Shown: piece by piece, positions 15,212-64,000 of the stretch | Layout: every line of letters begins with the position of its first letter | Position numbering within the stretch: position 1 is the stretch's first letter | Position numbers and translations under genes: made by a program | Origin: Limnomonas spitsbergensis | Taxonomy: Eukaryota; Chlorophyta; Chlorophyceae; Chlamydomonadales | DNA: 64,000 nt | Direction of reading: 5' to 3' | Assembly (NCBI GenBank): GCA_037349105.1 | Contig: JAYJMM010000103.1 | Span: forward strand, 2,170,001-2,234,000 | Notes under the pieces: generated by a model | Told to the model about the DNA's origin: nothing | The model's input: only the letters and a program-made list of their open reading frames with translations | Databases searched by the model: none

Positions 15212-18200
15212 TCACGACATCGAGTCGCCTGACGCCATGTTGGAGTTTCGGGGCAGGTGCATCTGTCGCTTTGTGTAGATGGAGGAGTCGAGGGAGGCGC
15301 AGATGCGGTCTACGGCAGATGCGAGCGTCTCCAGGTCCATAGCGTAGGAGATTCGGATGCAGTCAGGGGCGCCAAAAGCCTCCCCGGGCACCACAGCAAC
15401 ATGTGCTTTCTGCACAGGGTTCAGTTACAGTTTTTCAGGATTAAGGGTCCGATTGTGGTGGATATTCAGTTGCAGTCAGGGTTTAGGGTTAAAAGTTGAA
15501 TTGTGTGGGAGATGCTGATGCTGTCATGGGACAGCATAAGGATTCCCCGGGTGCCACAGCAACATGTGCTTTCTGCGTAGGTCTCAGGGTCCAGGGTTCA
15601 ATTGTTTAGGACATGCAGGTTTAGTCATGGGAGTGCCAAAGGTTTCCCATGCACCAGTAACACAGAAACGTGTGCTTTTCTGTACCGGGTTCAGGACTTA
15701 GGGTTCAGATCCAAGGAGTCCCAAATGAGAGATAATGTGATTCAGGTCCCATCCTCACAAATTGAATCCATGCCTAGGGAAAAGCGCACAGGCCAGCAGG
15801 CAGGCTTTCGGCCAGATCAATGTCGTAAACGAGCTTTCTGCTGGGTAGCAGCCGGAGCGATTGGACATGACCAAGGAGGATCGCCGTTTTTTTTGCATGG
15901 TCTGCTTGTGTTTCTTAACGTGTCAGACAAACTCTCAATGCACCCTGCCCACCTGCATAAAGTATGTGCAGATTACGCCGGAGGCTAGGCGGCCGTTATT
16001 GAGCTCACGGGGACAACACTGTCACCGGCCTACAGGCAGTGGCCCGCGCACGGGGGCAGGCTGCACCATGATCCCTCGGCCGCAGGCCGCAAGGCGCAGC
16101 TGAAATGATGCAAGCTTCAGGGTTTAGGGCAGGGCAGGGTCGCCAGGGCCTGACCCGGCGGAGACCTTTCCGGCAGACCCCGGTGAAATTGGGGGTTCAG
16201 CTGACCTGGCCTCCGGCTGCTGCCCCGGGTTTTTTCCTATGCTCCCGCATTCTACCCAGCAATGTCTTCCCTTCAAATGACTGGTTCAGGTAAACCTAGA
16301 CCCCGCCCGTACCATACACATCGACACCATCCTCTGGTAGGCTGACATCCCTACCTTGCTCCTCAGGACCACCCAGCCAGGCAGCCACCCACCCACCTTC
16401 TACTCCTGAAACGCCTGCACCATCATCATGCAGGCCTCACCATCTCCTGCACATGTCTTCCCTTCAAATGACTGGTTCAGGTAACCCTAGGGTCTACCTG
16501 TAAAGCTCAACCTTGACCAACTCACAGCCGGCAGCCCGAGAGCACCTCGGCATGCTGCTCGACCGACCCTTGGCCGCAGGCAGCGCATGGCGCAGCCGTA
16601 ATGATGTGGCAGAATAACACTCCAGACACGACACTGACCTGCATGAGGTAGATGCAGAACGTATCCGAATCCGGTACCGGCCCGAACTCCTTCCCCGCCG
16701 CCCCGGGCCCGAAGAAGGCGCTCATTTCGGGCAGCACGTAAAAGGCGCCCTCTGGCTCGGCGAGCTTCACGCCCGGGATGGCGCGTAACTTGGCAACGAT
16801 CATGGTCTGAGGAGGTAGGGTGCACATGGGGCGGTGAACAGGACGGCGAATGGAAAATTGAATTACCAAGGACGTGTGGGTGGCAAGGGTGGGTCAGGGA
16901 TGGCGCGCAGCTTGGCCACGATCATGGTCTGAGGAGGTAGGGTGCACATGGGGCGGTGAACAGGACGGCGCATGGGCGACTTCACAAACGAGGGCGATTG
17001 GACGGCGCAGGGGCGGTTGAATGCACGAGGGTGGATGGTGCAAGGGTAGGTAAAGCTTAGAATTTCGGATTTGCAGGTACAGCTTAGAACTCCGGGTTAA
17101 AAGGTAAAGCTTAGGGTCTGGGTTCTGTAGGTTAGGCTTATTACTTGGCTTCAGGGTCTCTCTACAACTACGCCCAGAACCCTGCCAGTGAGCAGATTAG
17201 GGTCGTTATTCGGAACCACATGGAAAAAGGGCAGACACACTTCTAGTGCCCTTCGTGATAGCATACTGCAGGCCTCCCGTCGCCTGCTGCGCCGCCCATA
17301 AACCCTCATAAGAACACAGGCTCACACCTGCTGCCCCCTATCGAGGCCCACACGAGCTCCACCCAGGCCTGTCCACCTCGCCGCCCCTCGCTCTATTACC
17401 CAGCCACCCAACCACCTTCCGCTCCTCGAACGCCCGCTCACCGTCTCACCCTTCTCGCCATCTCCTGCACATGTATCTCCCCTCCCATACCATAACCATC
17501 GATACCCTCCTCTGGTAGGCTGCCATCCCTACCTTGCCCCTCAGGATCTGCCAGCCAGCCAGCCACCCACCCACCTTCCGCTCCTCAAACGCCCACACAC
17601 CATCATCATGCAGGCCTCCCCACCACTTGCTGCACATGCCTCTCCCCGCCCACATACCATCGAAGGAACGCAGGCTTCCACCTCCTGCCCCCCATGCAGC
17701 CACATCATGCTCATGTGCATCAACACACACCAGCTGCACCCAGGCCTGTCCACCTCGCCGCCCCTCGCTCTATTACCCAGCCACCCACCCACCTTCCGCT
17801 CCTCGAAGGCCCGTACCATCATCATGCAGGCCTCGCCGCCGCCTGCACCCAGTGCCAGTGCCGCGACGCCGGCTGCCTGGGAGATGCTGCTCGCACACGA
17901 AGTGGACTGGCTCTGGATGAGCGCTGCCGCAGAGATGAAGTGCTTGGGGCCAGCAACGTAGCCCAGGCGGAAGCCTGAGAGCAGGGGGAGGGGAGCTGTA
18001 GGAGCACACAGGTTTGTTCTAAACCCTAAACCTACGCTAGGTCGGTTATAATTAAATTGAACAACCATGGGCTCCGTGCAAGGGGCTTGGGGTGTGCCAT
18101 ATTCAGTACTGCTTCAGGGTGCAGGGTTTGGGGTCTACCACAGTCAGCACTGCTTCAGGGTTTGGGGTCCACCACAGTCAGTACTGCTTCAGGGTTTGGG

Positions 18201-63700: not shown

Positions 63701-64000
63701 GGACCACACAGCGTCTCCTCAGAAGTGCTGGCGCCGTATTTTCTCAAGCTTGTTATCAACGCATTGCCATTGCATTTGAATTTTCAATCTGAAAGGATAT
63801 CTGAAGGGGTCGCATGGTTGGGAATCCACGAACGGGTCCCCCGTCTCCCCTCCCCCCCGCTGTGCGCCCCTCACTGGCTTTGGAGCGCCCTGGCTTAACC
63901 CTTACCCCTAAACCCTCACAGGCTTTGGAGTGCCCAGGCTAAACCCTTAACCTTAAACCCCAAACCCTCACAGGCTTTGGAGCGCCCTGGCCAAGACCTG
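54706..64000 (+). CDS. ASTE1-like: Asteroid (ASTE1)-like XPG/FEN-family nuclease, 3' end outside window
   Basis: Member of the asteroid branch of XPG/FEN-type structure-specific nucleases; human ASTE1 is a shieldin-linked DNA end nuclease. The start GCCACCATGG is an ideal initiation context. Exons: 54706-54964, 55444-55592, 58149-58292, 58681-58830, 60037-60252, 60584-60697, 61221-61362, 62201-62712, 63112-63275, 63974 to edge, all in phase, about 625 residues so far. The XPG-N part begins MGVQGLTTLLE, with LLVDASAVEYVL carrying the N-domain acidic residue. GMRCVLIRDG follows. The XPG-I core is FAVITDDSDFYVYG (Asp173-176), then ILGNDVS (240-242), as in ASTE1. Exon 8 has an acidic and Ala-rich linker. 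Introns 1 and 3 use GC donors (CAG/GCATGT, AAG/GCGAGT). No lesion is seen. Nuclease activity is inferred, since asteroid proteins vary in catalytic residues. Confidence 0.82.
55800..58045 (+). repeat. Minisatellite, 59-bp unit, about 37 copies (ASTE1-like intron 2)
   Basis: The unit reads TTGCATACCACAGTGGCAAC, TTGCATACCACAGTCGCAAT, TTGCATACATAACACGTAC. Two half-units end in CATACCACAG or CATGCCACAG. The true exon 3 acceptor is GCATGCCGCAG (58138-58148), so the array looks like a reiterated acceptor. The unit length shifts frame, giving repeated open frames on both strands that are not genes. The last units (57830-58000) read ACATCACAGGTAC. Confidence 0.93.
58806..59360 (+). repeat. Reiterated 9-nt microexon cassettes after exon 4 (ASTE1-like gene)
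   Basis: The exon 4 end ATGCAGCGCGCCCAG then GTACC (donor 58831) recurs about every 105 bp (donors near 58937, 59039, 59145, 59249, 59352). Repeats keep CTCATGCAG, a good acceptor, before CGCGCTCAG and GTACCGGG after it. Each of those could act as a 9-nt phase-0 microexon (Arg-Ala-Gln). The linkers begin GGTTTAGGGTTCAGGGTGCA. Confidence 0.88.
60698..60910. repeat. Short G/T-rich repeat after exon 6 donor
   Basis: GGTATAGCTGGATGTGGGTG / GTTATAGCTGGGTGTGGGTG units repeat about eight times from shortly after the donor (60698). Confidence 0.85.
60945..61130 (+). mobile_element. SINE-like repeat copy with A-rich tail
   Basis: The best preserved 3' end of the family: GTGTAGCTGACACGTGGCTG then ACACACGAAAAAAAAAGG. 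The body has GGACCAAACCTGCACCGGCC. It lies in intron 6 of the asteroid-like gene. Confidence 0.65.
61341..61925 (+). repeat. About ten-fold reiteration of exon 7 end plus donor (ASTE1-like gene)
   Basis: The true exon end GGCGTGCAGGCTCCTGGCAG and donor GTGAGCGG (61363) recur about every 60 bp to 61925. They are joined by TTTAGGGTACAGG / TTTAGGGTATCGGG linkers on the G-rich strand. Nearly every copy keeps a perfect GTGAG or GTAAG donor. It is the longest and cleanest donor array in the window. Confidence 0.93.
61985..62200 (+). repeat. Three-fold repeat leading to exon 8 acceptor
   Basis: AGGCGGCGTTTCCTGTTAG…CTCAT…CGCCACTTC is repeated at about 61985, 62062 and, diverged, 62132. The third runs into the true acceptor CTTCTCCTCTCAG (62200). 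Confidence 0.8.
63276..63700 (+). repeat. GTGGGTGGGTG-type repeats after exon 9 donor
   Basis: The donor context GGCAG then GTGGGTGTG is echoed by AGGCACCTTCACGTGGGTGG units and (GTGG)n runs to about 63670. Confidence 0.8.
63874..63990 (+). repeat. Three copies of exon 10 start plus acceptor (ASTE1-like gene)
   Basis: GGCTTTGGAGCGCCCTGG occurs at about 63877, as GGCTTTGGAGTGCCCAGG at about 63931, and truly at 63973. The last two are preceded by AAACCCTCACAG. The linkers are TAACCCTTACCCCTAAACC. Only the third continues as an open exon. Confidence 0.88.

Follow-up and report, generated by a model that had tools for sequence, protein, structure and literature searches.

Splice-junction copies inside their own introns in the green alga Limnomonas spitsbergensis

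A 64,000-nt stretch of the genome of the green alga Limnomonas spitsbergensis (contig JAYJMM010000103.1, positions 2,170,001 to 2,234,000; hereafter the window) contains five genes, of the PAT, WDR34, exostosin, longin and ASTE1 types, in which pieces of exon edge with the attached splice site recur within the adjacent intron. The copies are real, and the window is typical of a sample of dynein heavy-chain genes taken outside it. Within an intron, such copies are no commoner at the junctions than elsewhere. They are probably the outcome of local direct duplication that is blind to position and has a spacing of about 100 nt. Such a duplication would now and then extend over a splice site and persist, as the outer site is left where it was.

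Frequency and anatomy of junction copies

In the window, 54 junctions of the three genes with homology-checked models (PAT, WDR34 and ASTE1) were compared with 200 same-length draws of dynein introns. Copies within the own intron were found at p≤0.01 for 17 of the 54, corresponding to 9 of 27 donors and 8 of 27 acceptors. An earlier note on this DNA had named 19 such junctions, with exon numbers assumed to be identical to those used here. Fourteen of the 19 pass this threshold and one, the WDR34 exon 12 donor, gives a weak signal (p=0.03), while the remaining four (the exostosin exon 3 donor, two longin donors taken to be those of exons 2 and 6, and the ASTE1 exon 10 acceptor) were recovered by pattern search only. 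Three passing junctions are additions to the earlier list: the PAT exon 4 acceptor, the WDR34 exon 4 donor and the ASTE1 exon 3 acceptor. The copies of the WDR34 exon 10 donor are of low complexity and hence weaker evidence.

Dynein heavy-chain genes were located in the assembly (260,226,709 bases in 124 contigs) through the Pfam domain PF12774, and ten of about 16 were taken, 20 kb each. The reference for the models was the gamma heavy chain of Chlamydomonas, to which one of the ten is orthologous. Their 164 introns have a median length of 470 bp; five introns shorter than 120 nt were left out of the counts, and other tests required at least 150, 200, 300 or 420 nt. A 32-nt probe centred on each junction was searched against its own intron, the null being 200 same-length draws from introns of other dynein genes. 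At p≤0.01, a level that 1% should reach by chance, copies accompany 56 of 159 donors and 43 of the 159 acceptors; at least one is present in 84 of these introns. Probes placed 60 nt inside exons reached the same level in 13 of 222 cases. When scores of at least 20 were counted, the totals were 30 donors, 21 acceptors, 76 random intron-interior probes and a single exon-interior probe. The rates are robust to the splice-motif bonus: with GT and AG alone, 138 of 164 donors and 141 of 164 acceptors were unchanged, and copies were present at 47 of 136 donors and 37 of 138 acceptors, as in the whole sample.

The copies are direct and local. At a score of at least 16, direct probes matched their own intron at 47 of 159 donors and 36 of 159 acceptors (83/318 together), while reverse-complement junction probes gave 0/318 matches and reversed-letter probes 3/318. 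The proposal that copies stay outside the coding sequence was borne out, as the adjoining exon contained none on either side (0/186), against 54/186 donors and 43/186 acceptors with a copy on the intron side; at equal target lengths, 34 of 160 donors have a copy in the intron and 0 of 160 in the exon.

Units spanning exon edge, splice site and intron edge were present at 55 donors and 42 acceptors of 159. The nearest copy lies at a median distance of 104 nt for donors and 111 nt for acceptors; copy and real site have a median of 27–30 nt of exon sequence in common, and the match extends over a median of 55 and 59 nt on the intron side. Arrays of three or more copies make up 21 of 57 cases at donors and 12 of 39 at acceptors, the remainder being two-copy cases in which about half of the unit is matched (median). 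A decay of the copies with distance, described for the window in the earlier note, is absent from the dynein genes (Spearman coefficients of 0.15 for donors, p=0.10, and −0.07 for acceptors, p=0.43).

Junctions compared with other intron positions

Random probes within the same introns have copies at p≤0.01 in 115 of 318 cases, a rate similar to that of the junctions. A profile of 24-mers, drawn from up to 173 introns, has no peak at the junction, being flat for donors and lower for acceptors: donors give 38/149 (0.255), compared with 89/357 (0.249) at intron-internal pseudo-junctions. Going into the exon, the signal declines to 8/141 for donors and 4/145 for acceptors at a distance of 50 nt and has vanished by 80 nt (for donors, 2/137 at 60 nt, then 0/121 at 80 nt), whereas the pseudo-junction profile, lifted by arrays that reach both sides, holds at 0.20–0.30 over the same distances. 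When whole genes were resampled, the difference between donors and intron interior had a 95% interval of −0.115 to +0.101. A junction hot spot is rejected for this sample by the random intron probes, the profile and the pseudo-junctions. A wider spacing and a different build of junction copies were also considered and rejected: random positions lie mostly in long arrays, and among two-copy events neither the spacing (p=0.15) nor the matched part of the unit (0.56 at junctions versus 0.73 in the interior, p=0.38) differs significantly. The earlier note had set against its own proposal the possibility that junction-like copies are no commoner beside their own junction than elsewhere. With respect to neighbouring introns of the same gene this is not so (83/318 in the own intron, 6/576 in the neighbours); within the same intron it is.

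Local duplication is a large part of intron sequence in this alga: the fraction of intron-interior 32-mers with a local copy is 0.318 in dynein introns and 0.363 in introns of the window genes. Of eight random 6-kb stretches, two are near-pure tandem arrays (L038 and L042, with a local-copy rate near 1.0), three have a rate near 0 and three lie between. The stretches near 0 have longest open frames of 522 to 2,000 codons, and two of the intermediate ones also hold frames of more than 500 codons. These loci were too uneven to serve as an intergenic background and were therefore dropped from that use.

Among introns of at least 150 bp, those with a junction copy have a median length of 646 bp (n=84) and those without one of 391 bp (n=99; p=1.5e-7). 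The relation may run in either direction, and longer introns also offer more room for copies. The earlier idea that introns grow by duplication of splice junctions thus stands in part: many local direct duplications are present and copy-bearing introns are longer, but the data do not support the junction itself as the unit of growth, random positions being copied as often (115/318).

Alternative explanations

Copies might be kept as spare, decoy or alternative splice sites, providing functional redundancy or regulated alternative splicing, and an intact GT or AG is indeed present in 76 of 96 nearest copies (42/57 donors and 34/39 acceptors). The dinucleotides are not clearly better kept than their surroundings, however: GT is intact in 33/51 best donor copies, with flanking dinucleotides kept at 0.730, and AG in 33/40 best acceptor copies, with flanks kept at 0.714; over all acceptor copies, the letters of AG are matched in 221/240 cases and the flanks in 2642/3015. 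Nor does the nearest spacing prefer multiples of three (remainders 0, 1 and 2 in 18, 17 and 20 donor and 15, 11 and 16 acceptor cases). Use of the nearest copy would give an in-frame, stop-free product from an intact site in only 14 of 96 cases (7/57 donors and 7/39 acceptors), and would shift the frame or introduce a stop in 62 of 96, which contradicts the earlier suggestion that any copy could be chosen with little harm. The sequences thus give little sign that copies are used or kept, and retention for function appears very unlikely. A different possibility is that splice sites themselves are hot spots, for example through spliceosome- or transcription-linked breaks, and that introns lengthen by the copying of junctions. 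The presence of copies at roughly one donor in three and one acceptor in four and the greater length of copy-bearing introns would be expected of such a process. The like rates in intron interiors and at pseudo-junctions would not, and the gene-level difference is centred near zero for donors and lower for acceptors, which makes targeting of junctions very improbable.

Telomere-repeat insertion at staggered breaks could also produce the pattern, the junction copies then being target-site duplications that flank a telomeric insert. The telomere repeat of this genome is CCCTAAA/TTTAGGG (three of eight contig ends read, plus C1), and five perfect units in a row are found at 2025 forward and 3130 reverse places in the genome, some of them interstitial, for example C1:101092. 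Telomere-like filler lies between copies at PAT exon 4, a longin donor and ASTE1 exon 7; heptamers of this kind occur at 1.08 per kb in dynein introns and in none of the exons preceding them, with a bias on the sense strand (80 CCCTAAA versus 22 TTTAGGG), and are partly clustered in a few arrays. The two flanks match each other at 31 of 47 telomere-like tracts; for 940 control positions, a part of them within long arrays, the fraction is 0.39. Most junction units lack such filler, though, and a telomere score of at least 14 was reached by 16/95 units versus 48/475 control segments. Given an excess this weak, telomeric insertion is rejected as the general cause and would seem a very improbable account of the copies as a whole; the filler represents at most a minor route. 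An artefact of assembly or polishing might be suspected, as the published assembly combines PacBio continuous long reads with Illumina polishing, according to passages of its description (PMC11228838), and the exostosin gene contains apparent frame slips. Yet the copies differ from one another, are direct and sit on the intron side in the 186 introns tested; an artefact would not respect exon borders, and the restriction to the intron side therefore speaks against this explanation, which is extremely unlikely.

Proposed explanation

The preferred reading, position-blind local duplication, would operate as follows. Introns would undergo frequent short direct duplications regardless of the position of splice sites, and a duplication that happened to cross a junction would place a copy of all three parts, exon edge, splice site and intron edge, within the intron. 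Still joined to the full exon, the outermost site would remain in use; the protein would then be unchanged and the duplication would survive about as well as any other intron duplication. In homology-based models of the sampled introns, it is the outermost copy that fits the protein. The copies would later drift, and some would expand to minisatellites. Fill-in repair of staggered breaks or replication slippage may be the source of the duplications; direct units of tens to about 100 nt fit small tandem duplication by break repair and fit slippage as well.

Several observations weigh against this reading. The sites taken as used come from protein homology, and nine of the ten dynein genes were modelled on a paralogue's reference. 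The exon-interior control exceeds the nominal 1%, which indicates that the p-values are somewhat liberal. Acceptors are copied slightly less than the intron interior (36/159 versus 104/318, p=0.025; in the profile, 31/149 versus 98/357 at pseudo-junctions), with a 95% interval for the difference of −0.183 to +0.012 when whole genes were resampled. With arrays included, little of the unit falls on the exon side (shares of 0.27 and 0.22 versus 0.51, p about 2e-5) and junction units are matched less completely than interior units (0.81 versus 1.00, p=8e-6); for two-copy events the exon-side share is 0.25 versus 0.38 (p=0.07). When all donor copies are pooled, the T of GT agrees in 86/117 cases, below the flanks (2484/2897), which could reflect some selection against spare donors. 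Finally, the random stretches demonstrate that duplication is not uniform over the genome. The lower acceptor rate and the low exon-side share fit full neutrality less easily. A shortage of acceptor copies would be in keeping with first-AG scanning.

The puzzle is why intact copies that share so much exon sequence with the real site go unused, or are used too little to matter. It is conceivable, if doubtful, that the full exon serves the spliceosome as an anchor and that intact, near-identical sites some 100 nt into the intron are ignored, with a tolerance so great that about one third of splice sites carry copies.

Gene models and features of the window

The exons of the PAT gene (Table 1) were read off the sequence and then checked by homology to solved structures. 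The alignment to Arabidopsis prephenate aminotransferase (5wmh) covers residues 3 to 407 and has no gap at any of the seven junctions, its sole gap lying within exon 7. The WDR34 and ASTE1 models were built with an in-house spliced protein-to-DNA aligner, with database relatives as references and a few hand-edited exons. For WDR34, a second reference led to the merging of two exons of the initial alignment, 5 and 6, and the draft protein is 72% identical to that of Chlamydomonas eustigma and 64% to that of Chlamydomonas sp. UWO 241, both among the closest WDR34 proteins; passages of PMC11228838 place L. spitsbergensis in one clade with both. For ASTE1, two tiny spurious exons were removed and exons 1 and 4 were edited by hand before junctions were tested, and the draft is 42% identical to the Astrephomene protein. 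The exostosin-type and longin-type genes were modelled by eye only.

Intron 3 of the ASTE1-like gene (58293–58680) has an apparent GC start and would thus be a GC-AG intron. The exostosin-type gene switches frame twice within one apparent exon (45040–45350, minus strand), as would a pseudogene, a gene with small introns or one with residual assembly errors. Elsewhere in the assembly, two of the eight contig ends read carry a GCATCG-type hexamer array instead of the telomere repeat. Three WD40 matches of equal score (C89:859164, 868813 and 878381), spaced by about 9.6 kb, are probably a tandem triplication, and paralogues of this kind could show copy-number change of intron duplications.

Table 1. 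Genes and junction copies in the window (positions from the first letter of the window).
Feature	Position	Strand	Details
PAT-type aminotransferase gene	15300..25491	-	continuous frame; gap-free across junctions versus 5wmh
PAT exons 1–4	25378-25491, 23939-24089, 22803-22906, 21532-21728	-	
PAT exons 5–8	20108-20289, 17793-17974, 16639-16806, 15300-15409	-	exon 8 extends as far as the stop, which lies below 15300
PAT exon 2 acceptor copies	24090..24300	-	126 and 196 nt upstream of real site; score 26, p=0.005
PAT exon 4 acceptor copy	21729..22040	-	293 nt upstream; score 18, p=0.005
PAT exon 4 donor copies	21440..21545	-	38-nt unit, CCCTAAA filler between; tandem repeat 21464-21539; too close to count under the spanning rule; score 21, p=0.005
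PAT exon 5 donor array	19498..20171	-	7 spanning copies; repeat array; score 32, p=0.005
PAT exon 6 donor copies	17400..17820	-	218 and 377 nt downstream; score 29, p=0.005
PAT exon 7 acceptor copy	16807..16960	-	122 nt upstream; score 30, p=0.005
PAT exon 8 acceptor copies	15410..15720	-	163 and 269 nt upstream; score 23, p=0.005
WDR34-type dynein intermediate chain gene	26093..40850	+	14 exons as tested; spliced alignment to C. eustigma and UWO 241 proteins
WDR34 exon 3 donor copies	28412..28545	+	60 and 124 nt downstream; score 14, p=0.005
WDR34 exon 4 acceptor copy	28715..28860	+	132 nt upstream; score 20, p=0.005
WDR34 exon 4 donor copy	28952..29280	+	314 nt downstream; score 14, p=0.005
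WDR34 exon 7 acceptor copy	31945..32071	+	111 nt upstream; score 32, p=0.005
WDR34 exon 8 acceptor copy	33925..34005	+	65 nt upstream; score 24, p=0.005
WDR34 exon 10 donor copies	36359..37442	+	10 spanning copies in G-rich minisatellite; repeat arrays; score 24, p=0.005
WDR34 exon 13 donor copies	39584..39973	+	in minisatellite; no copy met the spanning rule; score 19, p=0.005
Exostosin-type exon 3 donor	44423..44972	-	21-bp array; 25 places within 3 mismatches; model by eye
Longin-type donor array	50185..50536	+	61-bp unit, telomere-like filler; 6 places within 4 mismatches; model by eye
Longin-type later donor	51924..52203	+	array; 3 places within 5 mismatches; model by eye
ASTE1-like gene, exons 1–8 as tested	54706..62712	+	spliced alignment to Astrephomene protein; exons 1, 4 and 7 to 8 hand-edited
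ASTE1 exon 3 acceptor copy	58085..58148	+	52 nt upstream; score 14, p=0.005
ASTE1 exon 4 donor	58809..59356	+	4 spanning copies, spacing about 106 nt; array; score 28, p=0.005
ASTE1 exon 7 donor	61340..61916	+	9 spanning copies, TTTAGGG-like filler; array; score 32, p=0.005
ASTE1 exon 10 acceptor	63869..63987	+	3 places (63869, 63914, 63966) within 5 mismatches; exon by eye

Relation to known systems

Introner elements, which form dispersed families across genes, resemble the algal copies in being repeated sequences with splice sites in algal introns; unlike introners, the copies described here are confined to their own intron, with few matches in neighbouring introns (6/576).

In human genes within segmental duplications, internal tandem repeats have been described at exon-intron boundaries, with units of about 30 bp on average (De Grassi and Ciccarelli 2009, PMC2812944). 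In the portions of that report drawn on here, the repeats likewise overlap the boundaries, alter gene structure and are minisatellite expansions. Its set holds 27 intron modifications, and for many of them a transcript is known in which the repeat remains exonic, whereas in the alga about one third of sampled splice sites are involved, on the intron side only and at distances of roughly 100 nt. Intron gain by tandem duplication, exemplified by the Rogers model and the potato RdRp case in excerpts of PMC4974935, shares with the alga a duplication that crosses the intron-exon boundary and copies splice signals; the same excerpts mention single boundary-crossing duplications in plants. In the Rogers model, however, a wholly exonic AGGT segment is duplicated and a new intron arises, whereas the algal copies contain intron sequence, lie inside the existing intron and leave the outer site in place, with no new intron in evidence.

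Introns of Chlamydomonas and Volvox are unusually rich in tandem repeats, as are those studied here, and the repeats are reported to be denser toward intron ends, with a suggested effect on splicing (PMC3887541). As far as extracts of that report go, repeats inside introns are counted and copies carrying exon edge and splice site are not described, and its enrichment at intron ends differs from the lack of an excess near the junction here. A plausible source of the duplications, by analogy, is the fill-in of staggered double-strand breaks by CST and Pol alpha-primase, which yields small tandem duplications that are also direct and local, at breaks with overhangs of 43 bp or more; sections of PMC8355091 demonstrate it in mouse and human cells rather than in an alga, and cite rice and Arabidopsis cases as well. 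For L. spitsbergensis itself, the passages of PMC11228838 on its genome give a mean intron of 788 bp and do not mention splice-site copies. Among the matches listed in literature searches, no title or abstract opening dealt with splice-junction copies in algal introns, subscription papers being mostly outside reach. The scale, a third of sampled splice sites, and the rule that the outermost site is the one retained appear new, while the underlying process is probably ordinary.

Significance

Duplications that cross junctions would make a simple and measurable contribution to intron lengthening, and they carry a warning for gene predictors, as decoy splice sites are common in such genomes. Duplicated sites are common in the sample and mostly have an intact GT or AG, yet none lies on the exon side. 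Engineered duplications have so far been the main means of studying how a spliceosome selects one of several identical sites. If the spliceosome is in fact anchored to the full exon, this genome would be a large natural experiment in the competition of identical splice sites, in which acceptors and copies that reach deeper into the exon, both somewhat under-represented, would mark where tolerance ends. Full-length transcripts reported for what is apparently the same species could measure the use of the copies directly.

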